Shown here piece after piece: positions 28,137 to 64,000 of a stretch of 64,000 bases of DNA. Position numbers and translations under genes: made by a program. Source of the stretch: a virus; IMG/VR virus record IMGVR_UViG_3300041402_000314, positions 62,001 to 126,000 of that record; one strand, given 5' to 3'. The notes under the pieces are model-generated. The model was given only the letters and a program-made list of their open reading frames with translations. It ran no database searches and was not told where the DNA came from. Each line of letters opens with the position of its first letter. The stretch's first letter is position 1.

Positions 28137-28137
28137 C

Positions 28138-46930: not shown

Positions 46931-47239
46931 ATGAGTGTTATCGATAAGATAGATAACCTTCTGAATGAAGCCTCTTCTAAGAAGCCTAAAGACATTAAAA
47001 GCATTTGGGATGCTGGTGAAGATGAAACGGATAGGTATACCATTGTCTTCGACCCTAAACAAGGTTATGAAGCTAATCCGGGTCTTTATATGATATTAGG
47101 ATTTGCTGCTGGTAGAGGCGGTGGTTCTATTTCTCAATGGGGAGAAGCCAAAGAAGGTAAACATTTAGGTAAAAAGCTTAAATGGGAAGATTTACCAAAA
47201 GAATCTCAAGAGCATGTTTTACAAAGGATTAAGGAATAA
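46931..47239 (+). CDS. small head protein with capsid-targeting-like N-terminus
   Basis: A 102-residue protein in the gp68 position. The N-terminus VIDKIDNLLNEASSKK ends in LNE followed by A, the expected cleavage pattern of the T4 prohead protease, and is nearly the same as the gene cut by the right edge (63869). The body (GLYMILGFAAGRGGGS, then ISQWGEAKEG) is not like T4 gp68. Confidence 0.75.
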   Translation: MSVIDKIDNLLNEASSKKPKDIKSIWDAGEDETDRYTIVFDPKQGYEANPGLYMILGFAAGRGGGSISQWGEAKEGKHLGKKLKWEDLPKESQEHVLQRIKE

Positions 47240-47250
47240 GGGAGACTAAG

Positions 47251-47928
47251 ATGAATCAACATCCATTAGTATTTTTAAGGGAAGAATTTGATTTTCAAAA
47301 CTTCGATAATATTATTGAAGAAGGTAAAGACGGTAAGGAAAAGACATATTGGGTTGTCGGTCCTACTATTGTATCTGAAGCAGAAAACAAGAATGGTAGA
47401 AAATACCAGAAGAGTGTCTGTGAAAGAGAAGTAGAAAGGTTCCAAAAAACAATAGATGAGAATAGGTCTGCTGGTGAACTTGGACATCCGAGTACACCAG
47501 AAATTAATCTCGAAAGAATATCTCATTACATCAAAGAGTTAAAGCAAGATGGAAATATTTGGATAGGTAAGCATCAAGTAGCTTCTACTCCAATGGGAAA
47601 CATCGCTAAAGCTCTCATTAATGATGGATATAAAATGGGTATTTCTACAAGAGGTCTTGGAACAGTTAAGGACGGAGTAGTAGGCGAGGATTTTAGATTG
47701 ATTACTGCCGACCTAGTTTCTGAGCCTTCTGGTCCCGGATGTTTTGTTGAATCTATTGTAGAAAATAAGCAATGGATTATAGACGAGTCTGGGAAAATCA
47801 AAGAAGTAGCGATGGAAGAAGCTTATGATGATCTTGAAGAAAAACTATGCGATTTGCCTAAACATGATATTGAAAAATTCATGATGGAAGCTATCTCATC
47901 ATTTGTTTCTAAAATTCAAAAAGCGTAA
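47251..47928 (+). CDS. prohead protease, gp21-like
   Basis: A 225-residue serine protease that cuts head proteins during maturation. AGELGHPSTPEINLERISHYI contains the catalytic His region, STPMGNIAKALINDGYKMGISTRGLG the nucleophile Ser region, and LITADLVSEPSGPGCFVES the third site, as in gp21. Its own N-terminus has NIIEEG, a possible self-cleavage point. Confidence 0.92.
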   Translation: MNQHPLVFLREEFDFQNFDNIIEEGKDGKEKTYWVVGPTIVSEAENKNGRKYQKSVCEREVERFQKTIDENRSAGELGHPSTPEINLERISHYIKELKQDGNIWIGKHQVASTPMGNIAKALINDGYKMGISTRGLGTVKDGVVGEDFRLITADLVSEPSGPGCFVESIVENKQWIIDESGKIKEVAMEEAYDDLEEKLCDLPKHDIEKFMMEAISSFVSKIQKA

Positions 47929-47941
47929 AAAAATCACGATA

Positions 47942-47949
47942 TATAAATA
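47942..47949 (+). promoter_or_regulatory. late promoter of the scaffold gene
   Basis: AATCACGATATATAAATAATTA; the same block precedes the capsid gene. Confidence 0.85.
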
Positions 47950-47996
47950 ATTAAAATAACATAGTAAAATAGTCACAAGGAGATTAAGGAGATAAT

Positions 47997-48782
47997 ATGA
48001 ATCCACTAGAAAAATTAATCGAGTTTATTGAAAAAGAAGGAAAGGTTGAACTTTCTGAAGGTTTCAAATCTAAGCTTGAGGACGCTATCAAGGTAGCAAC
48101 TGTAGACAAGGAAACTGAGATTGAAGGTCTTAAGGAAATAATGAAGGAAGCTAAAGCTGAGATCGAATCTGGTAGAAGCGAACTTCAAGCTCTTAAGGAA
48201 GGCACTCTGGAAGATGCGAAGAAGGCTATAGAAGAGTATAAGGAATCTCTTACTGAGAAGATTTCTAGTTATCTTGAGTCTGAACTACAAAATCTCATTC
48301 CTGAGAATCTTGTAGAAGCTCAAGCTAAAGTAGAAGCTTATGAGCCTATCGTAGAAAAAGTTAAGGGCATATTCAAAGGTTATGGAGTTGAAATCGATTC
48401 TGAAGCTCATGATGTTCTTAAGGAAGCTAAAGAAGAAATTCTTGGACTCCAGAAAAGCTATGACACTATCGTAGCTGACAAACTTAAGCTTGAAGAGAAG
48501 ACTGCCGAGCTTCTTGCTAAGTATGTATTGAAGGAAAAGTGTGACGGTCTTACTGAAGCACAAGTCACTAAAATCAATGTTATCTTCAAAGGAAGTGATG
48601 TTGAAGAAATCGAAGAGAAATTTGAGTCTGTAGCTGATCTTATTATCTCTGATGGTTCTTCTGCTAGTGATGGTGATAGTGTTGATGGTGCTGGTTCTGG
48701 TTCTGATTTTATTGACGAATCTGCTGGTTCTGCTGCTATAATCGAAGAGGATGTTAACTCCCTCGGACAAGACCTTCTTTAA
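47997..48782 (+). CDS. prohead scaffold protein, gp22-like
   Basis: A 261-residue, strongly acidic, helical coiled-coil protein between protease and major capsid genes, as T4 gp22 (269 residues). Several E-rich sites could be cleaved by the protease. The C-terminus (SDFIDESAGSAAIIEEDVNSL) resembles the gp22 capsid-binding end. Confidence 0.88.
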   Translation: MNPLEKLIEFIEKEGKVELSEGFKSKLEDAIKVATVDKETEIEGLKEIMKEAKAEIESGRSELQALKEGTLEDAKKAIEEYKESLTEKISSYLESELQNLIPENLVEAQAKVEAYEPIVEKVKGIFKGYGVEIDSEAHDVLKEAKEEILGLQKSYDTIVADKLKLEEKTAELLAKYVLKEKCDGLTEAQVTKINVIFKGSDVEEIEEKFESVADLIISDGSSASDGDSVDGAGSGSDFIDESAGSAAIIEEDVNSLGQDLL

Positions 48783-48798
48783 GAAAAAAATCACGATA

Positions 48799-48806
48799 TA
48801 TAAATA
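48799..48806 (+). promoter_or_regulatory. late promoter of the major capsid gene
   Basis: AATCACGATATATAAATAATTA, as before the scaffold gene. Confidence 0.85.
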
Positions 48807-48859
48807 ATTACAAAAGATATAATAAACAATTACAAAAGGAGCTTTAAGGAGATAATAAT

Positions 48860-50002
48860 ATGATAACTGAAAATGTAGATCAATTAATTGAAAAATGGGA
48901 TGGAAAGGGTTTCAAGGTAAGCGAAATCTCTGACCAGCTAGTTAGAGAGAACACTGCAAAGATTCTCGAAAATGAGCATAGATATATACTAGAAGCGAGT
49001 TCTACTTTGTCAACAGACATAGCGGACTTCAAGAAGATCATCATGCCTCTTACGAGAAGAATCTTCCCGAATCTTATCGCTAATGATCTTGTAGGTGTAC
49101 AGCCTATGAGCGGTCCTGTTGGACTTGCATACGCACTTAGGTTCAAAGCTGGTAACGCTGAGACTAACTATAACAGTGGTACGCAACAGGAAGTAGGTTA
49201 TAACACTGTTGATAAAGACTACTCTGGTTCTGTTCTTACGTCTGCTGGTGAAAGATGGGGTTCTACTGACCCAACTAAGACCAAGGAAATTCCAGAAGCA
49301 CAAATGAGCATCGAGCAGGTTTCTATCGAAGCAAAGACCAGAAAGTTGAGAGCAAGGTACTCTCTCGAATCTGCACAAGACCTTAGAAACGTTCATGGTC
49401 TTAATGTAGAAGCTGAGATGACTAACATGCTTCAATACGAAATCTCTGCTGAAATTGATAGAGAGCTTGTAGACAGAATTAACACTCTTGCTGATACTAA
49501 CTCTTCCGACTATGTTGTTAGTGCTGGTGACGGTCAGTGGGAAGCTGAGAAGTTCAGAAATCTTTACACAAGAATCGTTAAAGAAGCATCCGCAATCGCT
49601 ACTAGAACTAGAAGAGGTGCTGGTAACTTCATCATATGTTCTTCTAACGTAGTAACTGCGCTTGACTCTCTTAACAACTTCTTGATTCAGCCAACAAGTT
49701 CTGGCCCAATGAATCTTTCTCCGGGTGTTGCAAAAGTAGGTAGCATCGAGAACAGATTCACCGTATACAGAGATACTTTCGCTACAAGCGACTATATCAC
49801 TGTAGGTTACAAAGGTCCGGGTGCTGCTAACAGCGGTGTTGTTTACTGTCCTTACGTACCGATCATGATCAGCAAAGCAACTGAAGAAGGTTCTTTCTAT
49901 CCGATCATCGGTGTTATGACGCGATATGGCGTAGTAGATCATCTTTTTGGCGGAAGCGATTTTTACAGCAAAATTAACGTTGATTTTACAAACGTTTTTT
50001 AA
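48860..50002 (+). CDS. major capsid protein, gp23-like
   Basis: A 380-residue HK97-fold capsid protein. IMPLTRRIFPNLIANDLVGVQPM, SGPVGLAYALRF, the EISAEIDRELVDRIN and GNFIICSSNVVTAL segments are characteristic of gp23. The N-terminal piece up to RYILE (residue 47), followed by A, fits removal by the prohead protease. It is shorter than T4 gp23 (521), lacking the insertion domain. Codons are richer in C at third positions than in neighbours, as expected for the most abundant protein. Confidence 0.95.
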   Translation: MITENVDQLIEKWDGKGFKVSEISDQLVRENTAKILENEHRYILEASSTLSTDIADFKKIIMPLTRRIFPNLIANDLVGVQPMSGPVGLAYALRFKAGNAETNYNSGTQQEVGYNTVDKDYSGSVLTSAGERWGSTDPTKTKEIPEAQMSIEQVSIEAKTRKLRARYSLESAQDLRNVHGLNVEAEMTNMLQYEISAEIDRELVDRINTLADTNSSDYVVSAGDGQWEAEKFRNLYTRIVKEASAIATRTRRGAGNFIICSSNVVTALDSLNNFLIQPTSSGPMNLSPGVAKVGSIENRFTVYRDTFATSDYITVGYKGPGAANSGVVYCPYVPIMISKATEEGSFYPIIGVMTRYGVVDHLFGGSDFYSKINVDFTNVF

Positions 50003-50026
50003 GATAACCTAAAGTAACACATTAAC

Positions 50027-50060
50027 AAAAAGGGCTACTCGATTTGAGTAGCCCTTTTTT
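50027..50060 (+). terminator. terminator after the major capsid gene
   Basis: AAAAAGGGCTACTC / GAGTAGCCCTTTTTT stem with GATTT loop. Confidence 0.92.
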
Positions 50061-50072
50061 ATTGTCCAAAAT

Positions 50073-50102
50073 TTGACTTTTATCTATAGTCTGTGTTATA
50101 CT
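50073..50102 (+). promoter_or_regulatory. sigma70-type promoter before the homing endonuclease
   Basis: TTGACT 50073-50078, TATACT 50097-50102, 18 bp. Confidence 0.65.
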
Positions 50103-50115
50103 ATAAAATCTTAAA

Positions 50116-50220
50116 TATATAAATAATTAAAAGAGAGTTAGCTAACTTACGGGAATAGGTTAGCAACAGGTGGAGTAAGTTACCTGATGTCCTCTCTCAC
50201 ATCTATTTATATAAGGAGTA
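50116..50220 (+). repeat. structured three-way-junction element, copy 3
   Basis: TATATAAATA (50116-50125, a late promoter) pairs with TATTTATATA (50204-50213). Inner stem GAGAG (50133-50137) / CTCTC (50192-50198 region), hairpins GCTAAC (50141-50146) / GTTAGC (50159-50164) and CAGGT (50167-50171) / ACCTG (50182-50186). It lies directly before the ATG of the homing endonuclease, with AAGGAG in the 3' arm. Orientation relative to the gene is the same as in copy 2. Confidence 0.75.
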
Positions 50221-50225
50221 AGATC

Positions 50226-51266
50226 ATGCCAAACCCACCATTCTATACTTACGTTCTATTAGACCCTCGTAAAAAAGGAAACTATATTTATAATGGATTC
50301 TCATTCGATTATGAGCCGTTCTATTTCGGTAAAGGAATTAACGGTAGATGTAATGACCATATCAGCGAAGCTATCAATACCGATAAAAATAGACCTAAAT
50401 TAAATAAAATAAGAAAAATTCTCAAAGTTGGGAGGAAACCTATTATAGTTAAAGTCTTAGAAAATATTGATGAGCAAACAGCATTTGATAATGAAATAGA
50501 ATCAATAGCCGAGATAGGTCGAGCTGATTTAGGTTTAGGTCCACTAACTAACCTAACTGATGGTGGAGAAGGTGTAAGTGGTAGAATTATGTCTGATGAA
50601 GAAAAGAAATTACGAAGTCAAATATTAACTGGTATCAAAAAACCGCCTAGAACAGATGAACATAATAAAAATTTAGGTAATGCTGTTAGTGAAGCATGGC
50701 AAAATAAATTAGAAGAAGGATTTGAGTGGTCTGATGAAACCATTAATAAAAGAGCTGAATCTAATAGAGGTCAAACTAGAACAGATGAACAGAAACAGAG
50801 AATGAGCGTGTCTCAAATAATTTATTGTTCGGATGAGAAAGTTCGTGAAATGAAATCAGAAATATCACTCGAATATTATTCTTCTGAGGAAGGCGAACAA
50901 ACCAAACAACAAATATCAGCTAATCTCGTTTCCTTCTATGATACTGAAGAGGGTCAAGCTCTTAAAGATCATCTTTCATCTATTAACACAGGAGAAAATA
51001 ATCCTTTATATGGAACTAAAAATTCAGTTGAAACCATAGAGAAACGTGCAGCTACTAGAAAGAAAAATGGTCATTGGCAGATAAGTGAAGAGGAATTGTT
51101 TGAATCCTTTTCTAATGGACAGAAGAAACGATTTTCTGACCCAGAAGAGAGACGAAAGCAGAGCGAACGATTAAAGGGTAGGCGTTGGTATAATAACGGT
51201 AAACAACAAGGCCAATACCATCCAGATAAACGGCCTGATGGATGGGAATTAGGTAGATTAAGATAA
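50226..51266 (+). CDS. GIY-YIG homing endonuclease
   Basis: A 346-residue endonuclease. The N-terminal FYTYVLLDPRKKGNY and FYFGKGINGRCNDHISEA hold the GIY-YIG-like strands and catalytic Arg; DNEIESIAEIGRADLG and LTDGGEGVSGR follow as in SegA-type enzymes. The middle and end have NUMOD-like repeats (GENNPLYGTKNSVETI, RWYNNGKQQ). ATG 50226 has AAGGAG nine bases upstream; an in-frame ATG at 50187 within the element would add 13 residues. It sits directly after the capsid gene, a common target neighbourhood. Confidence 0.88.
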   Translation: MPNPPFYTYVLLDPRKKGNYIYNGFSFDYEPFYFGKGINGRCNDHISEAINTDKNRPKLNKIRKILKVGRKPIIVKVLENIDEQTAFDNEIESIAEIGRADLGLGPLTNLTDGGEGVSGRIMSDEEKKLRSQILTGIKKPPRTDEHNKNLGNAVSEAWQNKLEEGFEWSDETINKRAESNRGQTRTDEQKQRMSVSQIIYCSDEKVREMKSEISLEYYSSEEGEQTKQQISANLVSFYDTEEGQALKDHLSSINTGENNPLYGTKNSVETIEKRAATRKKNGHWQISEEELFESFSNGQKKRFSDPEERRKQSERLKGRRWYNNGKQQGQYHPDKRPDGWELGRLR

Positions 51267-51267
51267 G

Positions 51268-51289
51268 GGAGCCTTACGGCTCCTTTTTT
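51268..51289 (+). terminator. intrinsic terminator
   Basis: GGAGCC TTAC GGCTCC followed by six T. Confidence 0.9.
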
Positions 51290-51303
51290 ATTGTCTTTTT
51301 TCC

Positions 51304-51332
51304 TTGACATACTAATATGGTTATGATAAAGT
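51304..51332 (+). promoter_or_regulatory. sigma70-type promoter
   Basis: TTGACA 51304-51309, TAAAGT 51327-51332, 17 bp, then GTCATAATCAATTAAAGGAG. Terminator and promoter together copy the arrangement at 23445-23540. Confidence 0.6.
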
Positions 51333-51362
51333 ATAGTCATAATCAATTAAAGGAGATTTATC

Positions 51363-51569
51363 ATGGAACATCAAATTACGGTTGAGGATTTGAAAGGAAC
51401 TGTAGAACACCTTTTAGCAAGTTCTTATGGAGGAGGTTCTGGGAAAAAACTGGTTCTTACTTTTGAAATCGGAACAGGTAAAACAGAATATACGGTAAAG
51501 GGGAAAGATGAAACAAGAAATTTTGCCTTTATCGAACATGCTGTAGAATTTTATAATACTTTGGCCTAA
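51363..51569 (+). CDS. hypothetical protein, 68 aa
   Basis: After AAAGGAG. Gly-rich loop SSYGGGSGKKLVL then beta strands. Not recognised. Confidence 0.6.
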   Translation: MEHQITVEDLKGTVEHLLASSYGGGSGKKLVLTFEIGTGKTEYTVKGKDETRNFAFIEHAVEFYNTLA

Positions 51570-51576
51570 ATAGTTC

Positions 51577-51605
51577 TTGACTTATATATCCTACTATGAT
51601 ACGAT
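51577..51605 (+). promoter_or_regulatory. sigma70-type promoter
   Basis: TTGACT 51577-51582, TACGAT 51600-51605, 17 bp, then CTGTAAGTGGG. Confidence 0.65.
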
Positions 51606-51647
51606 GTATCTGTAAGTGGGAGTTAACCTGTAGAGGAGATTGGAATC

Positions 51648-51856
51648 ATGAAGAAAAAGTGATTATATATTACTGGCATATGACACCATTAAAAGGTCTC
51701 GAATATAAACACAATGAAGAGATTCTGGATGCCGACCCTTTTGAGATTGCTAAAGGAATCTTCGAAGCAGGTTATCAAACAATGATAATACCTAATAAAG
51801 AAGACGAAAGTATGGTTACTATAGGTATTGATGATAAATTCTTCAGGCAAAGATAA
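51648..51856 (+). pseudogene. small gene needing a -1 shift at its fifth codon
   Basis: ATG 51648 has a good GAGGAGATTGG site and a promoter, but its frame stops after four codons (MKKK). The shifted frame continues for about 65 residues (VIIYYWHMTPLKG ... MVTIGIDDKFF). One more A in the AAAAA run would join them. So the gene is disrupted, recoded, or carries a homopolymer error. Without a shift the only start would be GTG 51659, which lacks a ribosome site. Confidence 0.6.
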
Positions 51857-51895
51857 GGTCTTACTCTATTCGATCTACAATAAATTTGCCGTCAG

Positions 51896-51985
51896 TTTGG
51901 CCTATCCTGTAAATGAATATAAGCTAGGTTGGTAAAGGGTTTAAGGATTTCTATAAACCTATTTTGGCCGATCATTTGGCCGATC
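51896..51985. repeat. three short TTTGGCC repeats
   Basis: TTTGGCCTATC (51896), TTTGGCCGATC (51963) and TTTGGCCGATC (51975) lie in a 170-bp gap without a gene. They could be protein-binding sites; no further evidence. Confidence 0.45.
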
Positions 51986-52005
51986 TGAAATAAATGAATT
52001 TTTTC

Positions 52006-52034
52006 TTGACTTATTAGAACGATCTTGATATAGT
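52006..52034 (+). promoter_or_regulatory. sigma70-type promoter
   Basis: TTGACT 52006-52011, TATAGT 52029-52034, 17 bp, then CTGTAAGTGAG. Confidence 0.75.
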
Positions 52035-52077
52035 ATATCTGTAAGTGAGTGATACCCCTAATAAAGGAGAGACTAAA

Positions 52078-52635
52078 ATGATTGGAATTGGATGTGAGTC
52101 GTTTAACCCGTATATGCTCGGACAAAACAAGCAGGTGAAAAATATCATTTTCTATTACGATGGTGAAATCAAACTCACTATCAATAGTGGATGGCTTATC
52201 GATAAAAATGGATATGGTAGGGATATTAAATATCTCGATACTGATGAGCCTAGAAGGGCTAACAAGGTCATCCTCACTAAGAATGATAATTTCTACATTA
52301 AGAGTGAAGATCAGAGTTATAGCTTCGAGAGTACATATTACGATCTTTACATCTATGCGGATGTCGAATTCATTGAAGAGTATGTTAATCATACTTCAGA
52401 CAATAAAAGTAGGTTCCATTATTATAAGAAATTTATGGTTCCTGTTGTTAGCATCATGCGTAATGGTGAAAGGCTTGAGACTACCACAGTTGAAATCTTC
52501 TCTAGGATAGAAGAGCATGAAGACCTCAGAATCAAGAATATTCAATCTGAGATTCTTAAAAAATCAGGAGCTAATATCAGTATCAAGAGTCTGGCAATGC
52601 TTCTGGAAGTATATAAGTTAGAGGAGAAAAGGTAA
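52078..52635 (+). CDS. hypothetical protein, 185 aa
   Basis: ATG 52078 after AAAGGAG, placed by the promoter. Beta-rich first two-thirds (NIIFYYDGEIKLTINSGW) and a helical end. No catalytic motif seen. Function unknown. Confidence 0.7.
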   Translation: MIGIGCESFNPYMLGQNKQVKNIIFYYDGEIKLTINSGWLIDKNGYGRDIKYLDTDEPRRANKVILTKNDNFYIKSEDQSYSFESTYYDLYIYADVEFIEEYVNHTSDNKSRFHYYKKFMVPVVSIMRNGERLETTTVEIFSRIEEHEDLRIKNIQSEILKKSGANISIKSLAMLLEVYKLEEKR

Positions 52636-52636
52636 G

Positions 52637-52807
52637 ATGGAACGTAAAGAAAGAAAATCCAAAAAGACTGGCGCGAGGAAGGTAAGAAATATGGTAGCTG
52701 TTGATGCTCATTTCAGAAGTGGTGCTGGTGCTATGGGTGGCGGTAAGAAGACCAATAATAAGAAAGACCGTAAGCAGTCTAAACAGAATCTTAAAGAGGA
52801 ATATTGA
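52637..52807 (+). CDS. 56-residue basic Gly-rich protein
   Basis: One base after the previous stop, GAGGAG upstream. Very basic (KKTGARKVR, KKDRKQSKQN) around a GAGAMGGGKK loop. Possibly nucleic-acid binding. Function unknown. Confidence 0.65.
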   Translation: MERKERKSKKTGARKVRNMVAVDAHFRSGAGAMGGGKKTNNKKDRKQSKQNLKEEY

Positions 52808-52808
52808 G

Positions 52809-53117
52809 ATGGATAAGGCTAAGAGAAAGAAAATGAAGCTTGACATTATACCCACTCTTATGTTAGACTTTACAGGAGTATCTTTAGGTGAGGGTAAAAT
52901 TCGTGATGATGGTATAGTCAGTGACTTCCTCGAATTTTGTACAGATAATGATATCAATTGTTTGCGTGGAGGTATGGTAGGTGGCGGTTGTTGTGTTCGC
53001 TATCACCGTCCAGATGATTTGGATAAGATAGTTAAATGGTTTGAAGAGCAAGGCATTACGCCTAATGTACATGACCAAAATTGGGATTGGGATGAAGGAG
53101 AAGATGATGAAAAATAG
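52809..53117 (+). CDS. YggL/DUF469-like protein
   Basis: A 102-residue protein from ATG 52809. The start AKRKKMKLDIIPTLMLDFTG, the GGMVGGG turn and the ending KWFEEQGITPNVHDQNW follow the plan of YggL (DUF469), a small protein that binds the 50S ribosomal subunit in E. coli. If correct, the phage may tune host ribosomes. Moderate confidence from pattern only. Confidence 0.7.
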   Translation: MDKAKRKKMKLDIIPTLMLDFTGVSLGEGKIRDDGIVSDFLEFCTDNDINCLRGGMVGGGCCVRYHRPDDLDKIVKWFEEQGITPNVHDQNWDWDEGEDDEK

Positions 53118-53541
53118 CGATACCCATATTTATTTGTATGCAAAAGGCCATTATATTGAAACGGATACTCTCGAAGACATGAAGAAAATTGTAGCAGAAC
53201 GATGTGGTTTTAATGCTGAAGATGTTAGGGTTAAAGACATACAATCAATATTGACAAGTATAGCATTTAAGATTATAATCAACTCAGGCAACCCAGAACA
53301 TTTTTTTGATGATTTTATTGAAGGTATTTCTCCTGATAATATGTGGAGAATTATGACAAAACAAAAGATGGAAGATTATGATTTCAATTTAGCAGTTATC
53401 GAGAAGTGTTTGAGCGTAATAAGATTTGTTAGTGTGAAAGACGATGATGGTAATCGTATTCTGGAACTTGATGAGCCTAATGGAAATATATTACCACTTA
53501 AAATGGATTGGGATAAAAATGAAACTAAGATTTGTATCTGA
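53107..53541 (+). CDS. hypothetical protein, 144 aa
   Basis: Overlaps the previous gene; ATG 53107 has AAGGAG six bases upstream. Alpha/beta protein with YLYAKGHYIETDTLEDMK at the start. Not recognised. Confidence 0.7.
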   Translation: MKNSDTHIYLYAKGHYIETDTLEDMKKIVAERCGFNAEDVRVKDIQSILTSIAFKIIINSGNPEHFFDDFIEGISPDNMWRIMTKQKMEDYDFNLAVIEKCLSVIRFVSVKDDDGNRILELDEPNGNILPLKMDWDKNETKICI

Positions 53542-54283: not shown

Positions 54284-54293
54284 TTAATTTCTC

Positions 54294-54322
54294 TTGACAT
54301 TCCAACTCCGACATGTTATAGT
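54294..54322 (+). promoter_or_regulatory. sigma70-type promoter of the noncoding RNA
   Basis: TTGACA 54294-54299, TATAGT 54317-54322, 17 bp, then TTGTAAGTGACC. Confidence 0.8.
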
Positions 54323-54328
54323 ATATTT

Positions 54329-54664: not shown

Positions 54665-54706
54665 TGATTAACCTTCTTTCTAAAAACTTAATTGGAGATA
54701 AAGAAG

Positions 54707-54877: not shown

Positions 54878-54889
54878 GGAGAATATAAA

Positions 54890-55949: not shown

Positions 55950-55962
55950 AGGAGACTGAAAA

Positions 55963-56148: not shown

Positions 56149-56160
56149 AGGAGATTGGAA

Positions 56161-56394: not shown

Positions 56395-56396
56395 AT

Positions 56397-56469: not shown

Positions 56470-56509
56470 TTGTAGGGACTGGTGTTAACAATTTAACTGA
56501 GGAGATGGA

Positions 56510-56917: not shown

Positions 56918-57170
56918 TTCTACATTATTCGATTGGTTGTCATGGAGAGCATCTTCTTTTATGGAGCTACAAGTATATTGTCGGTACGCTGATATTACTT
57001 CTCCACGAGGAAAGATGTTACTTAGAAAATACGCTATTGGGTGGTGTAGAGGAGAGAATCTTTTATGTAGACCAAAGGTAAATCATGTGGCTTTAATGTG
57101 TTTTAAGAATGGAAATCAATTTTGGTTTCATCTAAGAAATAAAGAATTTAGGGAGGTATTTGGGATATGA
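56901..57170 (+). CDS. hypothetical protein, 89 aa
   Basis: Overlaps the membrane protein gene by 17 bases and lacks a clear ribosome site, so it is probably translated by coupling. Contains CRYADITSPRGKML and a Trp-rich end. Not recognised. Confidence 0.6.
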   Translation: MLQKLDSTLFDWLSWRASSFMELQVYCRYADITSPRGKMLLRKYAIGWCRGENLLCRPKVNHVALMCFKNGNQFWFHLRNKEFREVFGI

Positions 57171-57466
57171 AAATAGATTGTTATCGTGATGGTGGAACTG
57201 TTGTTATAGAGGATAGAGGCGTTACCCTATATATTGATCATGGAATAGGTTCTAAGACAAAGGGTGTGGTGTATTATGACTATCCTAAAGATGAAAACGC
57301 AAGAAAACTTTCAAATCTAAGAAATCTTATGGAAGCGAAAGAAATTTTAGAACAGGCATACGAACAATCTGAATATTATTTACCTACAATTGCAAAAGGT
57401 ATATTGTGGGTTGAAAATAAGATTAGTGATGAATTATGCCCACCTGAAGATTTTCCTTGTCATTAA
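57167..57466 (+). CDS. hypothetical protein, 99 aa
   Basis: Overlaps the previous stop (ATGA). Beta-rich first half and helical second half. Function unknown. Confidence 0.65.
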   Translation: MKIDCYRDGGTVVIEDRGVTLYIDHGIGSKTKGVVYYDYPKDENARKLSNLRNLMEAKEILEQAYEQSEYYLPTIAKGILWVENKISDELCPPEDFPCH

Positions 57467-57490
57467 GATATCGAAGACGGAGATAAAGAA

Positions 57491-57691
57491 ATGAGTGAGA
57501 GAACCGATCATATTTTCAAAGCTACTCTAATGGCAGTAGAGGAAGCTAAGAAGAAAGATGAACATAGAATTGAAAAGGTTCTTATATGGGTTACTCAGTA
57601 CGGTAAACGTAATAAAGTAACCAAGGATGAAGCCCTGATAGCTTTATCTTCTAACCTAAAGGATTATCTATATTCAGACTTGACAAAATAG
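57491..57691 (+). CDS. hypothetical helical protein, 66 aa
   Basis: GGAGATAAAG upstream. Charged helical protein. Ends over the next promoter. Not recognised. Confidence 0.6.
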   Translation: MSERTDHIFKATLMAVEEAKKKDEHRIEKVLIWVTQYGKRNKVTKDEALIALSSNLKDYLYSDLTK

Positions 57692-57708
57692 TTATGTTCT
57701 GATACACT
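57680..57708 (+). promoter_or_regulatory. sigma70-type promoter
   Basis: TTGACA 57680-57685 overlaps the end of the previous gene; TACACT 57703-57708; 17 bp. Confidence 0.65.
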
Positions 57709-57750
57709 ACAAACATAAGTAGAAACAAACTTAAATAATGGAGGAGAAAG

Positions 57751-58146
57751 ATGAGTAGACTAGAACTAAGTGATACAGGAATGGATGTAATAGTAAAAAT
57801 GGCAGATGGGAATCCGGGTGCTATTACGGCTATGATGGATATCTTGGAAAAACATGATGAGATTGACCCTCAAGCTATTCTGGGTGGAATGGGTGCTATC
57901 ATGATACTCGATACATGGGAAATTTATGGTACTGATATCTATGTATTATGGAGTGATAAATGTAACCGAGATGTCCGCCAAATGTTGATGTTGATGAGGG
58001 CTACACAACTCGGTATATTCTCTCATATTAATCTGAAAGAGATGGCTGCTGATCAGATGCGTCAGGTAAATCTAAGCGATGAAGAAATGGCGGGTCTCGA
58101 TGAAAAGGTTTGTGAACAATTAAAGGATTTCGCTAGACCAAAATAA
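57751..58146 (+). CDS. conserved phage protein of unknown function, 131 aa
   Basis: AATGGAGG precedes the ATG. KMADGNPGAITAMMDILEK, then LDTWEIYGTDIYVLWSDKC and RATQLGIFSH are a pattern I have seen in T4-group genomes without an assigned role. Helical, cytoplasmic. Confidence 0.75.
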   Translation: MSRLELSDTGMDVIVKMADGNPGAITAMMDILEKHDEIDPQAILGGMGAIMILDTWEIYGTDIYVLWSDKCNRDVRQMLMLMRATQLGIFSHINLKEMAADQMRQVNLSDEEMAGLDEKVCEQLKDFARPK

Positions 58147-58168
58147 ATATATTTAATATAGTCTCCTT

Positions 58169-58234
58169 AAAGCTCCTTATAATATTACAAAGTATAAATA
58201 ATTAAAACTATGTAATGTGTAAGGAGCTTTTTTT
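58169..58234 (+). promoter_or_regulatory. terminator-like hairpin with internal late promoter
   Basis: AAAGCTCCTTA (58169-58179) pairs with TAAGGAGCTTT (58220-58230) and is followed by a T-run (58228-58234). TATAAATA (58193-58200) and a second stem ATTACA / TGTAAT lie inside. The 3' arm contains the AAGGAG of the following mini-gene. It could end early transcripts and open only when transcription starts inside it. Confidence 0.8.
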
Positions 58235-58276
58235 ATGTCAAGTTTCGATACTAAAAAATTAAATAAGGTAGGATAA
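58235..58276 (+). CDS. possible 13-residue leader peptide
   Basis: ATG eight bases after AAGGAG, frame MSSFDTKKLNKVG then stop, nine bases before the next gene. The start is like that of the protein at 62914 (MSSFKDY), so it may be a remnant of a similar gene or a true leader peptide. Confidence 0.35.
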   Translation: MSSFDTKKLNKVG

Positions 58277-58284
58277 GGAGAAAG

Positions 58285-58548
58285 ATGAATTTTAAAGAAT
58301 ATTTGGATGAAGCTAAAGAAGTTGGGTTAAAAACATTATATGCTAAAGCAGTCCCTACTAAGGATGATGTTATTCTGAAATTAGACCCTGTTGCTGCTAA
58401 GAAGAAAAGAGATATCGAAATATATTCAGACCCCGAAGGTAAAGAATTAAAAGCAACCTTTAGATGGGATAAATCTAATAAACCAAGGAAGAATACGAAG
58501 GTAATTACTCTCAATAGCTGGAAATGGAAATTAGAGTGGATTAAATAA
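58285..58548 (+). CDS. small late protein with capsid-targeting-like N-terminus
   Basis: An 87-residue basic protein. NFKEYLDEAKEVG resembles the T4 internal-protein targeting sequence (pattern YQEFIAEA) with LDE before A as a possible cut site. The remaining part is a small beta domain (KELKATFRWD). Late promoter upstream. Confidence 0.75.
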   Translation: MNFKEYLDEAKEVGLKTLYAKAVPTKDDVILKLDPVAAKKKRDIEIYSDPEGKELKATFRWDKSNKPRKNTKVITLNSWKWKLEWIK

Positions 58549-58563
58549 TTAAGGAATTAAACT

Positions 58564-59304
58564 ATGTCAATAAATGTAATAGACAGCAAGGCAGAGCTGA
58601 AGGATTGGATTAAACGTAAGCTAGGTTGGCCTACTATTAACCTAGAATTCCACGATGCCCAGCTAGAAGATAATATAGATGACGCTATAAAGGAATATAC
58701 TGAACATTCTGGTGATGCTACCTATAGATCAGCACTCCTTTTATGTATGTCTGCGGGTGTAACTGAATATCCATTGGATGATACCGTAGAGTCTGTATTA
58801 GGATTAGAAACGCAATCCGCTATTGGTGGTGGTATCAATACTCTATTCACTATCGAGAACCAATTATACCAAGCTGGTTATATCGACATATTTAGTGGTT
58901 CTATGAATCTAACAAGCTATCAGATAGCTATGGAATATCTCGATATGACTAACAGTATGTTAGCAGCTCAGTATTTCACCGAATTCAATAAATATACAAA
59001 TACTCTCACGATAACACCAACACCCGATGATGATTATACGGCTGTTTTGGAGATATATAGTAAGAGAGATTTCACTGGAGCCACTTCTACTGTCTATGAT
59101 GTCAAATGGGTTAAAGACTACTCTCTTGCTCTTTCTATGATTGTATTAGGGCGTATATGGGGTAAGTATGATGGTATGCCATTACCCGGTGGTGGTACTC
59201 TGAATGCTTCTGATATGAAAGCAGATGGCAGAGAAGATAAATTAGCTCTCGAAGAAAAACTTCAGGCAGATCACGGTGAACCATTAGAGCCATCATTCGG
59301 TTAA
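58564..59304 (+). CDS. neck/head completion protein, gp13-like
   Basis: A 246-residue protein. LKDWIKRKLGWPTINLEFHD, then LEDNIDDAIKEYTEHSGD matches the start of T4-type neck proteins (gp13), which close filled heads. The later LEIYSKRDFTGATSTVYDVKWVKDYSLALSMIVLGRIWGKY, viewed in pieces, fits the same family. T4 gp13 is 309 residues. Confidence 0.7.
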   Translation: MSINVIDSKAELKDWIKRKLGWPTINLEFHDAQLEDNIDDAIKEYTEHSGDATYRSALLLCMSAGVTEYPLDDTVESVLGLETQSAIGGGINTLFTIENQLYQAGYIDIFSGSMNLTSYQIAMEYLDMTNSMLAAQYFTEFNKYTNTLTITPTPDDDYTAVLEIYSKRDFTGATSTVYDVKWVKDYSLALSMIVLGRIWGKYDGMPLPGGGTLNASDMKADGREDKLALEEKLQADHGEPLEPSFG

Positions 59305-59307
59305 AGC

Positions 59308-59336
59308 TTGACAATAATATAAATATTTGATATGGT
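59308..59336 (+). promoter_or_regulatory. mixed early/late promoter
   Basis: TTGACA 59308-59313 with TATGGT at 17 bp, and TATAAATA 59318-59325 inside the spacer. Both signals lie before the same gene. Confidence 0.6.
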
Positions 59337-59363
59337 ATTACCATAACTTAAAGGAGCATATAA

Positions 59364-59663
59364 ATGAAAGATTTACTAACGCAAGGAAATGACGTAGCTG
59401 ATTTCCTAATGAATCAGATCGATGAGGCCAGAGACGGTGTTACCTCTTCTCAAGCCAAAAGATTGAAAAGCGATTGGGAAAAAATAGCAAAAGAGGGTAT
59501 TGAAGTCGAAGAAATTAAAGGTACATTTTATGGATTCGGCTCTGAATTAGCTACTTTACGCCTATTAAAAAAATATACTGCTAACGGTCAAACTGCTAAT
59601 AAGAAAATCAAGGCAGATTATAGTAATGGAAGAAATTCACACTTCTTCAGATTAGAAACATAA
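59364..59663 (+). CDS. late cargo-like protein, paralogous N-terminus A
   Basis: A 99-residue protein. DLLTQGNDVADFLMNQIDEARDG is shared in pattern with the next gene; IDE before A is a possible prohead-protease site. The rest differs. Confidence 0.7.
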   Translation: MKDLLTQGNDVADFLMNQIDEARDGVTSSQAKRLKSDWEKIAKEGIEVEEIKGTFYGFGSELATLRLLKKYTANGQTANKKIKADYSNGRNSHFFRLET

Positions 59664-59687
59664 TAAGAAAATTTAAGGAGAAACAAG

Positions 59688-59993
59688 ATGACAAAAAATG
59701 TATTAACACAAGGAAATGATGTAGAAAGGGAACTGATGAGTCAGATCAATGAAGAGGCAAACGGTCTGAGTTCAAAAGAGAAGAAAGAGATAATGGATAA
59801 TATCAGGAAAAATATGAATTTCTATCTTCAGAAACTCGAAAACAATTTAGATAAGTTCCCTACTAGTTGGGGCGAGAATGAAGCATATGCTCTTTTCGGC
59901 AATACGATAAGAAGTATTATGGAGACTGGTGTTCTTAAGAAAGCTTTAAAGGACATGAAGAAAAATAATAAATGGTATTCATTGAGCATATAA
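59688..59993 (+). CDS. late cargo-like protein, paralogous N-terminus B
   Basis: A 101-residue protein starting NVLTQGNDVERELMSQINEE, matching the previous gene in its first 25 residues (LTQGNDV identical), then diverging. AAGGAG upstream. Helical body. Function unknown. Confidence 0.7.
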   Translation: MTKNVLTQGNDVERELMSQINEEANGLSSKEKKEIMDNIRKNMNFYLQKLENNLDKFPTSWGENEAYALFGNTIRSIMETGVLKKALKDMKKNNKWYSLSI

Positions 59994-60004
59994 GGGAGCA
60001 GAAA

Positions 60005-60409
60005 ATGAAAAAATTAATGGAACAACTAGACCTCGTATTAGAGGGTATATCCAAGAATGTTCTCAGACAATATCTAGCAACCGCTCTATGGTCTTCTAAT
60101 GATGATGAGGGCGACCCATTGGATAGTGAATATGATGTAAGAGATATAGCTAAGTCTTCTATCAATCAAGCTAAAAAGGATTTGGCTAAATTCTGGAAGC
60201 AAGCAGGTGATCTTCTGAAAGGCGAAGATGAGACTCAGGCAGCACATGATTTATGGTTGACTAGAAATCATCATGGAGCTGGTTTCTGGGATAGAAAATA
60301 TAATAATGACGAGGATGGTACTAAAGGCGATAAGCTAACTAAGATAGCAGAAAAATTTGGTGAAATAAATCCTGTTGTCGGTGATGACGGTAAAATATAT
60401 TTCGAATAA
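60005..60409 (+). CDS. late protein with DLWLTRN-HGAGFWDR motif
   Basis: A 134-residue protein from ATG 60005. KLMEQLDLVLEGI is the targeting-like start. The body has ATALWSSNDDEGDPLDSEY and HDLWLTRNHHGAGFWDRKY, a domain I know from many unrelated phages (function unknown). Here it is attached to the cargo-type N-terminus. Confidence 0.78.
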   Translation: MKKLMEQLDLVLEGISKNVLRQYLATALWSSNDDEGDPLDSEYDVRDIAKSSINQAKKDLAKFWKQAGDLLKGEDETQAAHDLWLTRNHHGAGFWDRKYNNDEDGTKGDKLTKIAEKFGEINPVVGDDGKIYFE

Positions 60410-60418
60410 GGAGATAAG

Positions 60419-61003
60419 ATGTCCAAAAGATTATTAGAACAATTAGATAGCGTACTGATCACAGAAGATCAGATCGTAGAGAAGTTCGAGCTATCCAATG
60501 ACGCAATAGCACTTCTTGAAATAGCAACATTCATGGAGACCAAGACCTTAGATGAAGCTCTTAATTTCGGGAAGCTTTTAGGTAAGTTCGGATTGAAAGC
60601 CCATAAAGGAACTGGACTTCTGGATGTACTAAAGAAGGCAGGTAAGAACATCGCTAAAATGATGTGGCTTGCTTTCCAAGCTCAGAGAGGAGATGATTCT
60701 GCTAAACTGGAATTGAAAGACCTTCTTAATACTAAGATCAAGAAAGAAGAAGTTATTAACTTCCTTTATATGCTCGATCAGGCAACCCTACATCTAGTTA
60801 CTGGTCCTCTTCACACGATTGAAGCTCTAACTGGTTGGCATATAAGCGCAGACCTTCATAAAGCTACTTCAGCAACCCAAGCTATTAAGACTGCTATAAA
60901 GGAACTTGAGGATGCTGGTAAGAAATTGGTTGGTAGCGTTAAGACTAAAGTTCTTTCTTATGTCGGAAACATTAAATCTGTTATGGGTTTGGCTAACGGA
61001 TAA
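60419..61003 (+). CDS. late cargo-like helical protein, 194 aa
   Basis: Starts KRLLEQLDSVLITED, like the previous gene. The rest is helical with a possible membrane-active stretch (IAKMMWLAFQAQ) and amphipathic C-terminus. No known domain. Confidence 0.72.
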   Translation: MSKRLLEQLDSVLITEDQIVEKFELSNDAIALLEIATFMETKTLDEALNFGKLLGKFGLKAHKGTGLLDVLKKAGKNIAKMMWLAFQAQRGDDSAKLELKDLLNTKIKKEEVINFLYMLDQATLHLVTGPLHTIEALTGWHISADLHKATSATQAIKTAIKELEDAGKKLVGSVKTKVLSYVGNIKSVMGLANG

Positions 61004-61014
61004 AGGGTAATTAA

Positions 61015-61529
61015 ATGAGTAAGACATTTAGCGAGTATATCAAAGAAGGAAAGATTAGCGCATGGCAAAAACTTTATAGACAGGCCATAGTAGATTTTTT
61101 CTTTAGAAAATATGGGCTAAAGGCAACTATAAAATATAAGCCCATAAAAAGTAAAAAATTCTTTGGAGATGTTGTTTTGAATAACGATTCTCTCAAGAAA
61201 CATATTTTTACTCTTCGATATAATCCTGATTCTGGTTTCGAATATATGGCTTCGTCTATATTACATGAATTGACACATGTAAAACAAATCATTAAAAAAC
61301 ATCTTTCGGCAAATGATAAAGGAACTATAATTTTGTGGAAAGGAAAGAAACCATTCTAGTCAATGATTATAAAAATATAAAATATGATGCATACAAACAA
61401 TTACCTTGGGAAGTAGAAGCCATAAAGTTAAGTAAATCTTTACCCGAAGAATTCTATAAAAGTCCAGAATATTTAGCATTACAGGGAAAGGATAAATCAT
61501 TAGATTATATCATAGATTTATATAAATAA
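61015..61529 (+). pseudogene. zinc metalloprotease-like cargo protein with a frameshift
   Basis: MSKTFSEYIKEGK is the targeting-like start. SSILHELTHVKQII holds the HExxH zinc motif of metallopeptidases. The first frame stops at 61359 after KGTIILWKGKKPF. A -1 frame opens at 61335 and continues LVNDYKN ... LPWEVEAIKLSK, where the second Glu is placed as a third zinc ligand would be. So one protein seems split by one base. It may be recoded, dead, or an error. If active it would be a protease carried in the head. Confidence 0.65.
61521..61528 (+). promoter_or_regulatory. late promoter
   Basis: TATAAATAATTGA, overlapping the end of the protease-like frame and 75 bases before the next gene. A TTGACA with a weak -10 follows at 61544. 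Confidence 0.6.
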
Positions 61530-61602
61530 TTGAAAGATTAAGATTGACAACAAGAATTAGATATGATAAGCTATTATCATAATCTAAATAAGGGAGAGAA
61601 CG

Positions 61603-62100
61603 ATGAATAAAACATTTAAAGAATATCTGAAAGAAGGTAAGGCTAGTTTCGATAGCCCTGAAGATATGGCAACCCAGATCGAGAAGATGATTAAAGGTTA
61701 TTTCCCTAAGTCATGGGCAAATGTAAAAGCCGTATCGAATCTGGGTAAATCAATCAACATTACATTTACACTAGGGTCTGATAAAAGTGAATGGGCAAAT
61801 GGGATATTCCAAAATGACCCTGCCATTACGTCTATTATGATTCATCGTCCTAGTAATGCTGAAAATTTTATGGATGAAAAAATGCAAGCTGAAGGTCTTC
61901 AAACTTCACTTACTATCAGTCCTACTAAACAATATATGGCTTATGGTAGTTTAAAGACAGGATGGAGAAAAAAGACTGGAAATCCAGAAGTTATTTTTAA
62001 GCATGTCGAAAACCATTTCAAAAAATTGAAATCAACTATAAAAGACAATCTGGATATCATGACACCAGAACATAGAAAAATAGCGGAGAAGAAGGTATGA
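61603..62100 (+). CDS. late cargo-like protein, 165 aa
   Basis: MNKTFKEYLKEGKASF is almost the same start as the protease-like gene; LKE before G is the expected cut. The body (INITFTLGSDKSEWANGIF, then KQYMAYGSLKTGWRKK) is an alpha/beta domain that I do not recognise. Confidence 0.75.
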   Translation: MNKTFKEYLKEGKASFDSPEDMATQIEKMIKGYFPKSWANVKAVSNLGKSINITFTLGSDKSEWANGIFQNDPAITSIMIHRPSNAENFMDEKMQAEGLQTSLTISPTKQYMAYGSLKTGWRKKTGNPEVIFKHVENHFKKLKSTIKDNLDIMTPEHRKIAEKKV

Positions 62101-62297
62101 GTAACGAAATATTAAATAAAATAGCTGGTGTCTTAGAAGAAGGCAAAGTAGTAAAATTGAGTAGTGATGGTGATATCAGTGTTAAAAAGGCTATAGCGAA
62201 TCATATCACTATCAGAGATGATAGTGTCGGAGCCATAATTTCTATCAATAAAAAATATCTAAAAGATTTGGTAGATTTCATTCAAAAGGAATTTTAA
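62097..62297 (+). CDS. late cargo-like protein, 66 aa
   Basis: Overlaps the previous stop. NEILNKIAGVLEEGKVVKL is the targeting-like start (LEE before G). The body is a short alpha/beta unit. Function unknown. Confidence 0.7.
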   Translation: MSNEILNKIAGVLEEGKVVKLSSDGDISVKKAIANHITIRDDSVGAIISINKKYLKDLVDFIQKEF

Positions 62298-62311
62298 AGG
62301 AGATTGAAAAG

Positions 62312-62473
62312 GTGTATGATACCAAAGTAACATTGAAGAAAGTCGAAGAAGGTTATTATCATGGTTACTATGAAGGAAAGCAGATTCTAGGCGGTAAAAA
62401 GAGTGAACTAGTTAGAATGATGAAACTGATGGTTCAGGGTATAATGGAATCCGAGAGAAAGAAGCTGACTTGA
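62312..62473 (+). CDS. 53-residue basic protein, GTG start
   Basis: GTG with AAAGGAGATTGAAAA upstream. EGYYHGYYEGKQILGGKKSE then a basic helix. The stop codon overlaps a TTGACA box. Not recognised. Confidence 0.55.
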   Translation: MYDTKVTLKKVEEGYYHGYYEGKQILGGKKSELVRMMKLMVQGIMESERKKLT

Positions 62474-62499
62474 CAAACCATATCAATATGTAGTATAAT
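62470..62499 (+). promoter_or_regulatory. sigma70-type promoter of a small RNA
   Basis: TTGACA 62470-62475, TATAAT 62494-62499, 18 bp. Confidence 0.8.
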
Positions 62500-62505
62500 A
62501 GAGAC

Positions 62506-62606
62506 AACTTGGACAGAAAAAACTGTTATGACACACTAAAATATAGATAATCTTGATCTGAAATATGGTTGGTAAGCCTAGACGCTGTTAAGTCTAGGCT
62601 TTTTTA
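62506..62606 (+). ncRNA. candidate small RNA, about 100 nt
   Basis: Between a strong promoter and a strong terminator there is no reading frame worth calling. It contains a CAG-AAAAAA-CTG hairpin and ends in stem AGCCTAGAC / GTCTAGGCT (62575-62600) with a T-run. Such a unit is typical of regulatory small RNAs. Confidence 0.7.
62575..62606 (+). terminator. intrinsic terminator of the small RNA
   Basis: AGCCTAGAC GCTGTTAA GTCTAGGCT followed by TTTTTT. Confidence 0.9.
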
Positions 62607-62617
62607 TTTTCAGGATA

Positions 62618-62625
62618 TATAAATA
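62618..62625 (+). promoter_or_regulatory. late promoter
   Basis: GGATATATAAATAATTATAA, 33 bases before the next gene. Confidence 0.8.
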
Positions 62626-62657
62626 ATTATAATAAACCTGTAATAAAGGAAACCACT

Positions 62658-62903
62658 ATGAGCTTTAAGGATAAGATTATTAAGTATATCTGGAATAATC
62701 TATTAGCATTTGATAGACAAGTTAATGCTCTTCTATGCGGAGACCCAGAGGAAACTATCAGTTCTCGTATGGGTAAATTAGTTGAGCAAGATAGATGTCC
62801 TTTCTGTTATTTTATCTGTACACATTTTCTACACAAATTAGACCCAGATCATTGCCAGAAGTCAATTGACAGAGACGAAGGCGATGATGAAATAAAATTT
62901 TAG
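62658..62903 (+). CDS. conserved phage protein with NALLCGDPEETISSR motif
   Basis: An 81-residue protein. DRQVNALLCGDPEETISSRMG and the CPFCYFICTHFLHKLDPDHC end form a pattern seen in many phages of Gram-negative bacteria, with no known role. The cysteines and histidines could bind a metal or form disulfides. Confidence 0.75.
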   Translation: MSFKDKIIKYIWNNLLAFDRQVNALLCGDPEETISSRMGKLVEQDRCPFCYFICTHFLHKLDPDHCQKSIDRDEGDDEIKF

Positions 62904-62913
62904 GAGAATAAAT

Positions 62914-63519
62914 ATGTCAAGTTTCAAAGATTACATGACCAAAGAAAAGAATAATGATATCATCAATGATGGACATTTCCATGTAGAAAAGATGGGAGGT
63001 AGAACAGGTCCACCTATTAGAGTTAAGACCGATGATGGCAGAACAACCCATATCCATAATCAAAGTGATGGTAAGGATACAGTCGAAGCTAAAGATGTAG
63101 GTGGTTTCGTTAATAGGGATGATATAGAAGACAATGTAACTTCTCTTCCAAAAAGCCCAAATCATACCCATATGCAAACTGATGGACAGCATACCTCACC
63201 AGCTATATATCCTGAAGTAGAAGAAGATCAGAAGGGTATTAGTATCGGTGGTATCTCTGAGAAGATAGAACAAGTTCTTGAGGGTAAGGGTAAATTCGAT
63301 AAGAAAAATCTAAAAGGTAAAAATACCAAGATAATAGACCCTCATAACAAAGATAAGATTTGGTATTTTGATGATATACAGGATAATAAGATTAGAGTGA
63401 CACAAGTAGTTTTAGGTAGCATTACAGGTCAAAGTGTTATGTCACTTAAAGATGTGAATGAATTACTTAAAGGATTAGGCAAACAAAGTTTCGGTACTTT
63501 AGGATTTAGGGAGAATTAA
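62914..63519 (+). CDS. late protein with two cargo-type segments
   Basis: A 201-residue protein. The start MSSFKDYMTKEK is targeting-like. The first half is rich in His and Gly (HIHNQSDGK, NHTHMQTDGQHTS) and recalls phage structural or metal-bound domains. An internal ISEKIEQVLEGKGKF (about 109-123) repeats the start of the next gene, so it looks like a fusion of two cargo proteins that the prohead protease might separate. Confidence 0.75.
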   Translation: MSSFKDYMTKEKNNDIINDGHFHVEKMGGRTGPPIRVKTDDGRTTHIHNQSDGKDTVEAKDVGGFVNRDDIEDNVTSLPKSPNHTHMQTDGQHTSPAIYPEVEEDQKGISIGGISEKIEQVLEGKGKFDKKNLKGKNTKIIDPHNKDKIWYFDDIQDNKIRVTQVVLGSITGQSVMSLKDVNELLKGLGKQSFGTLGFREN

Positions 63520-63522
63520 ATA

Positions 63523-63857
63523 ATGGATTTAATAGAGAAGATAGAACAAGTATTAATTGAAGGTAAGATCAAAAAGTTTAAGGGTGATAATCCTTTTTCA
63601 AAATCAAATCTATATATGGTTGGAGCTGGTATGGATACGAATGGAAATCATGTGGTATCGATAAAATTTCCTAATTCCAGCGCATTTACAATTCAAACCG
63701 CTGGTAATTTGAACACCGCTCATGATGCATTGAGAGGGGTGAAAGATTATGAGACCGAAATAGATGATTCCACAAAAAGAAGATAGAAAAAGAGATTGTT
63801 GAATATGTCAAGGATTATGGGTCTAAGGCACAACAATCAAAACTAAAAACATATTAA
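63523..63857 (+). pseudogene. late cargo-like protein with a frameshift near its end
   Basis: MDLIEKIEQVLIEGKIKKF is the targeting-like start (LIE before G). The first frame stops at 63786 (DDSTKRR). The -1 frame continues KKIEKEIVEYVKDYGSK ... to TAA at 63857 and ends just before the next ribosome site. One more A in the AAAAA run at 63772-63776 would restore a single 111-residue protein. Confidence 0.65.
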
Positions 63858-63868
63858 AGGGGAATCAA

Positions 63869-64000
63869 ATGAAAATCATAGACAGGATAGACAATATTTT
63901 AAATGAAGCATCTAAAGAAATAGATGAGACTTCTGGTACTGAATTGGAAATGTATATAGAGAATGATAGCCAATTATATAGTCAACAATTTATTCCTATA
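63869..64000 (+). CDS. late cargo-like protein cut by the right edge
   Basis: Starts KIIDRIDNILNEASKE after AAAGGGG; the start is nearly identical to that of the gene at 46931 (VIDKIDNLLNEASSKK). 44 residues are visible before the window ends. Confidence 0.7.
   Translation, partial: MKIIDRIDNILNEASKEIDETSGTELEMYIENDSQLYSQQFIPI

Follow-up and report, generated by a model that had tools for sequence, protein, structure and literature searches.

A large set of small proteins with T4-like N-terminal tags as candidate head cargo of a T4-superfamily phage

Why do many small genes of one virus share an N-terminal helix ahead of otherwise unrelated bodies? The question is raised by a stretch of 64,000 nucleotides (hereafter the window) spanning bases 62001–126000 of the 204,149-base virus record IMGVR_UViG_3300041402_000314. 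A preliminary description had listed 12 small late genes in it that begin with a helix ending in an [IL]xE/[AG] site, and had read them as an injected effector arsenal loaded into the head by a swappable tag. The source virus is a large (204 kb) T4-superfamily phage with a capsid protein only 35–39% identical to those of the closest isolates; a Megablast search with the region found no phage record that matched at the DNA level, capsid-protein relatives with 53–64% identity came solely from metagenome contigs, and the relatives found with the terminase as query were mainly short contigs. The gene set comprised 397 genes, predicted over the entire record with a simple caller of our own.

Approximately 25–30 small genes of the record begin with an amphipathic helix of 9–22 residues that ends in (L/I)xE (a hyphen marks the predicted cut after the Glu). 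In T4, proteins reach the gp22 core by means of a capsid-targeting sequence (CTS), which gp21 cuts off (PMC9026906 and PMC5694885). The propeptides at the N-termini of T4 IPI, IPII, IPIII and Alt, from which gp21 removes the CTS, are likewise short and end in (L/I)xE, and propeptides of this type (10–20 residues, terminal (L/I)xE) were found here. We regard a T4-type capsid-targeting system carrying an unusually large cargo set as highly probable. Since the T4 parts (CTS-like tags, gp22, gp21) are present, the same steps would be expected by analogy: some 25–30 small, mostly basic proteins would be made late in infection, their tag helix would bind the growing gp22 scaffold core, they would be trapped when the gp23 shell closes, and a gp21-like protease would cut after (L/I)xE, releasing the mature bodies within the head, from which they would enter the next host together with the DNA and might act against host defences or for host takeover. 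By the same analogy, the set of proteins that the virus delivers into its host is probably far larger than that of T4.

The common tag was observed directly and withstood several controls. Near N-termini, [IL]xE[AG] motifs peaked in position at residues 11–20. A leave-one-out profile, the seeds of which were picked by eye, retrieved 14 genes at ≥ 12 bits, against an expectation between 0.05 from shuffled sequences and 0.43 from internal segments, and 17 genes at ≥ 10 bits vs. approximately one expected. Because of the eye-picked seeds, an unbiased all-against-all comparison of N-termini was also run; this ab initio clustering joined 19 genes, rising to 22 or 30 when the cut-off was lowered, whereas internal segments of the same proteins gave only 2–6 genes and T4 a tag group of only three (IPII, IPIII, and 61.1). 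A chance motif was rejected on the profile excess and the N-terminal clustering, both judged against shuffled or internal controls. The hydrophobic moment was 0.53 in the tags and 0.26 elsewhere (p = 7e−11), in agreement with the amphipathic helix described earlier, and tagged genes made up 20 of 24 genes in a consecutive run, which was matched by 0 of 5000 shuffles. At the predicted cut, P1 was always Glu, P3 always L, I, V, or M, and 19 of 26 tags had A or G at P1'.

Two tag classes were distinguished, of which class B (MDIIEKIDxILNE-) predominates in the main array. Class A was found in five genes (MSKTFSEYIKE-G, MNKTFKEYLKE-G, MSKTFIEYLSE-A, MNFKEYLDE-A, and MQLKEYLRE-G) and has in essence the sequence known from T4. 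The strict motif T[FY]xE[FY][IL]xE occurred at three N-termini and was absent from the remainder of the 55,164-residue proteome, while in T4 it marks the N-termini of IPII, IPIII, and 61.1, so that the proposed likeness to the T4 targeting helix holds at the residue level for three tags. Targeting of T4 IPIII depends on residues 4 and 7, and its processing on residues 8 and 10 (PMC9026906); the residues at these four positions are present in class A only. As an aside on T4 itself, gene 61.1 (NC_000866 18966–19130), which clustered with IPII and IPIII ab initio, starts with the CTS-like MKTFKEFIKE-D and may encode an unrecognised internal protein.

The main array occupies genome positions 120285–129299, beginning at window position 58285 and ending, beyond the window, at 67299 on the window scale. 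A second tagged group lies on the minus strand (genome 29969–38812), and single genes at genome 47289, 49368, and 162407. The 12 tagged genes inside the window are given below in window positions, as are all positions of this record not called genome:
46931–47239, plus strand: tagged protein MSVIDKIDNLLNE-A in the gp67/gp68 position, clean site LNE-A
58285–58548, plus strand: predicted cargo MNFKEYLDE-A, clean site LDE-A, late promoter at 58193
59364–59663, plus strand: predicted cargo ..MNQIDE-A, clean site IDE-A, phrog_26253 match (5.4e−14, residues 30–99 only)
59688–59993, plus strand: predicted cargo ..MSQINE-E, weaker site INE-EA
60005–60409, plus strand: predicted cargo MKKLMEQLDLVLE-G with an LTRN/HGAGFWDR domain, clean site VLE-G, phrog_1915 match (2.6e−21)
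60419–61003, plus strand: probable cargo MSKRLLEQLDSVLITE-D, weak site LITE-D
61015–61359, plus strand: predicted cargo MSKTFSEYIKE-G with an HExxH domain and a broken reading frame, clean site IKE-G
61335–61529, plus strand: C-terminal part of the HExxH protein after the frameshift (blastp to its paralogue 3e−10)
61603–62100, plus strand: predicted cargo MNKTFKEYLKE-G, clean site LKE-G, late-promoter-like site at 61521
62097–62297, plus strand: predicted cargo MSNEILNKIAGVLEE-G, clean site LEE-G
62914–63519, plus strand: suggested two-unit cargo, class A-like start with weaker site MSSFKDYMTKE-K, body 1 (DGHxH..GPPI), internal tag EKIEQVLE-G, body 2
63523–63786, plus strand: predicted cargo MDLIEKIEQVLIE-G, clean site LIE-G, first of 11 tagged genes that follow one another without interruption to genome 129299
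63869–64000, plus strand, continuing past the window end to genome 126255: predicted cargo MKIIDRIDNILNE-A, clean site LNE-A

All genes listed in the preliminary description are real open reading frames (ORFs), and for 60005 this position is the true start, a longer ORF from 59972 having been set aside. A clean [ILV]xE-[AG] site was present in nine of the 12, the other three having weaker sites, and the list was incomplete, the whole set being about twice its size. The edges of the set are soft, with approximately 20 firm and 10 weaker members (59688, 60419, 62914, and genome 31755, 37872, 47289, 127247, 127945, 128851, and 129087).

The proteins expected to bind and cut such tags are encoded in the head module, where gp20, gp21, gp22, and gp23 are all present with an S77 prohead protease among them, as in the T4 system:
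45055–46713, plus strand: gp20 portal (Pfam Portal_T4, 5.4e−123), T4-type late promoter TATAAATA at 45020
47251–47928, plus strand: gp21 prohead protease (Peptidase_S77, 4.9e−20; phrog_207, 2.3e−54), predicted to remove the tags
47997–48782, plus strand: gp22 scaffold (T4_CASP, 1.4e−14), predicted partner bound by the tags, late promoter at 47942
48860–50002, plus strand: gp23 major capsid protein with putative maturation site RYILE-A (Gp23, 1.3e−98), late promoter at 48799

The gp21-like protease named earlier is thus present, and the other three genes were likewise confirmed. When the capsid sequences were compared, RYILE-A aligned by position with the LTE-A site of T4 gp23, where it had been said to lie, and the site was mostly similar in relatives.

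With the tags removed, the 30 bodies (44–229 amino acids, one or two units each) were mutually unrelated except for one pair, the two HExxH proteins, which bears out the earlier remark that the bodies differ. A net positive charge was found in 85% of the mature bodies vs. 29% of other small proteins (p = 9e−7), although charge had played no part in selecting the tagged set; 60005, genome 49368, and genome 126264 are acidic exceptions. Small basic mature proteins are also typical of the T4 system, and their basic character has been remarked upon (PMC9026906). The tagged genes could instead form a single duplicated and diverged family, of which the N-terminus alone has stayed recognisable, with the tag as an ancestral remnant and no targeting signal. 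Many tags are indeed near-identical (MDIIEKIDxILNE), and 59364 and 59688 have a longer leader (LTQGNDV) in common; the bodies, however, are unrelated to each other, yet have relatives elsewhere that carry no tag or a different one. Four bodies already contradict such a paralogous family, which we rejected as extremely improbable given the mutually unrelated bodies.

Homologues without a tag start at the predicted cut for four bodies (59364, LTRN/GFWDR, 61603, and, in L136, HExxH). The 59364 body corresponds to phiM12 gp077, which starts at the body. The DLWLTRN/HGAGFWDR domain, described earlier and indeed located behind the tag of 60005, was found in 422 phage records and is widely untagged; in 50 standalone ORFs, with starts chosen mechanically, the conserved Trp had a median offset of 16, compared with 15 from the cut and 28 uncut in 60005. 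For the GFWDR body, neither a solved fold nor a sequence relative was matched. The 61603 body occurs untagged in Alishewanella phage Slicko01 and has another tag in L136; in contig G011 it stands behind a different leader (MIKLKSLIIE-E), the match beginning at residue 19 of the 61603 protein. A leader of this kind, MI[KR]LxxIL[SN]E, is the tag on the same bodies in other phages, several of which also encode Peptidase_S77; in G009, which encodes an S77 protease of its own, it begins five or more successive genes. When viral contigs were scanned with single proteins (58564, 60005, and the HExxH paralogue), no relatives emerged; alignment-based scans found some.

In 62914, a second tag (EKIEQVLE-GK) lies within the protein at about residues 114–124. 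Its class A-like leader and internal class B-like tag together suggest a two-unit cargo; in the relative G002 the DGHxH..GPPI body follows a class B tag beside the portal gene (judged by eye), and 62914 had no match in the phage collection.

Bodies occurring with their own tag, with that of another lineage, or with none support the notion of a swappable tag. We consider it evenly poised whether head-targeting tags are, more generally, lineage-specific ports to a shared pool of free-standing proteins, each being fused to the tag that its own scaffold reads and thus pre-loaded. If so, ordinary phage genes would be turned into injected ones, with approximately 30 cargoes here, and the prohead protease would split 62914 at its internal tag. 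In G006 (L040–L049), three genes (155790, 188633, and 189535) have a common N-terminus, MDYxESIxRFxLLLED, which is statistically not strong and possibly another lineage-specific tag.

The HExxH metalloprotease-like domain noted earlier is tagged, but the window copy (61015) is frameshifted, its C-terminal half continuing in the other frame; either a natural mutation or faulty assembly may account for this. Beyond the window, the minus strand carries a tagged paralogue that is intact (genome 36088–36591). HExxH bodies follow MQLKEYLRE-G or MSKTFSEYIKE-G here and MIKLRDILSE-D or MIRLKSIMNE-D in L134, L135, and L138, while they have no tag in L136 and stand inside long proteins in L137 and L139–L142. 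The best PDB neighbours were selecase (MJ1213), abylysin, and jannalysin (Foldseek, E 0.05, probability up to 0.98), and a profile search matched selecase (E 0.04); each match is weak alone, but they agree on a possible likeness to minigluzincins. The Glu in LPWExEA, a candidate for the downstream Glu ligand of a zincin fold, was conserved among full-length members. Apart from one fragment, the family was nearly absent from cellular genomes, which therefore gave no hint of a host. In two AlphaFold models (overall means 86 and 90) the bodies were well folded, the tag blocks had low confidence (means about 45–49), and the predicted cut fell in a linker. Two giant proteins (L140:4894–7893 and L142:3715–8151) start with a tag-like helix (MIDFINEIVNEILEE-N), followed by a nucleotidyltransferase-like stretch and then the HExxH domain; judging from this arrangement, each is a possible polyvalent protein delivered by a tag of the same kind.

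The helix might also stay uncleaved, as a docking or regulatory element that, within the infected cell, binds a protein of, e.g., the host or the phage. The D, N, K, or E at P1' of some tags would suit this, as would the T4 IPIII variant with Asp at position 10, which stopped processing but not targeting (PMC9026906). Against it stand the constancy of P1 and P3, the prevalence of A or G at P1', and the untagged homologues that start at the cut, and we regard it as quite improbable.

More weight is due to the possibility that the tagged proteins are mostly parts of the prohead core or scaffold that would be packaged and cut without serving as injected effectors. The 46931 gene occupies the place of gp67/gp68, its counterpart in G002 (G002:19003) has the same place, head genes in G002 are surrounded by tagged genes, and the tails of genome 37872 and 38303 are of low complexity, acidic or lysine-rich. 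However, the bodies include a putative zincin-like metallopeptidase, some domains are encoded as free proteins by phages that have no tag, and 29 unrelated bodies far exceed the needs of a core, so that for the set as a whole we find this rather unlikely. A core component is nevertheless likelier than an effector for 46931, and the same may hold for genome 37872 and 38303.

Of all steps in the targeting model, effector function is the least certain, and the arsenal named in the preliminary description is argued by analogy with T4 precedents and from the nature of some bodies. T4 Alt modifies RNA polymerase, and to our knowledge targets have been identified for few internal proteins. T4 Ip1–Ip3 each block type IV restriction (GmrSD; PMC12373910), and IPIII is required on strain ECOR17 (PMC9391042).

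Expression fits a late-made cargo in part. The late-promoter sequence TATAAATA was counted 85 times vs. about 42 expected, and its strict form stands just upstream of gp20, gp22, gp23, genes read as terminase and sheath, and six tagged genes. The earlier designation as late proteins is hence supported by promoters for part of the tagged genes; most array genes lack a promoter of their own. Near-identical repeats around TATAAATAATTAAAA (47942, 48799, and genome 39353, 44433, and 124618) are apparently conserved late promoters.

Several results weigh against a targeting system with late-made effectors. Late promoters are only modestly enriched (6 of 30 tagged genes vs. 27 of 367 others, p = 0.03), as would be expected if few promoters served the whole array, and the excess was not significant within genes that have long upstream gaps. 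Sigma-70-like boxes, seen by eye upstream of 59364, 61603, and 62658, allow earlier expression as well. The class B sequence differs from that of T4, and its targeting role is proposed by analogy. PADLOC gave 0 matches among ten proteins tested.

How far, then, does the system go beyond what is known? The CTS and variable internal proteins are already known. T4 internal proteins share with this set the core motif (in the five class A genes), small basic bodies, the head module, and, for six tagged genes, late promoters; here there are about 25–30 tagged genes instead of a handful, mostly in one array, with a second and dominant tag class, mutually unrelated bodies across many families, and a two-unit cargo with an internal tag. 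Among T-even phages, at least ten hypervariable internal-protein genes have been reported group-wide (PMC12373910), with a common signal ahead of unrelated bodies and a probable counter-defence role in both cases; here the variety lies inside one genome, and distant phages have some of the same bodies behind other tags or none. The giant phages SPN3US and phiKZ have ejection proteins, many head proteins being cut by a prohead protease and injected, but their propeptides (PMC5694885) are mostly > 100 residues long with A/S-x-E sites, in contrast to 9–22 residues and L/I-x-E here. Like the polyvalent proteins of phages and plasmids (PMC5512222), the HExxH and LTRN/GFWDR domains also occur inside long phage proteins; in the present set they are separate small tagged proteins and not several effector domains on one long polypeptide.

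It was proposed earlier that the CTS allows T4-like phages to add head proteins (PMC9026906). New are the scale within a single genome, the second tag class, the internal tag, and bodies that recur in other lineages with another tag or untagged; the part of the capsid-targeting-sequence literature that was consulted described no array of this kind. The tags offer a way to predict from sequence alone which proteins a T4-like phage injects. With some 25–30 candidates in one genome and untagged homologues for comparison, the function of pre-loaded phage proteins becomes directly testable, and the second tag class would supply new head-loading signals for delivering proteins.

Other genes of the record were noted in passing. 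A GIY-YIG/NUMOD3 homing-endonuclease-like gene (50226–51266, Pfam-confirmed) immediately follows the major capsid gene, and further genes of similar appearance, judged by eye, lie at genome 28580, 43349, 48193, and 131455. A vWA protein, a PP2C phosphatase, and a protein kinase (27364–28092, 29597–30445, and 32178–33860; Pfam) stand close together, which is unusual for a phage, with similar-looking neighbours in G002 (27697, 29394, and 30274). Finally, 25858–29604 and 36512–37595 hold genes for an NAPRTase-like protein, a possible nicotinamidase that matched nothing in Pfam, CoaE, and a cytidylyltransferase-like (CoaD-like) protein, with which salvage of NAD and CoA is possible.

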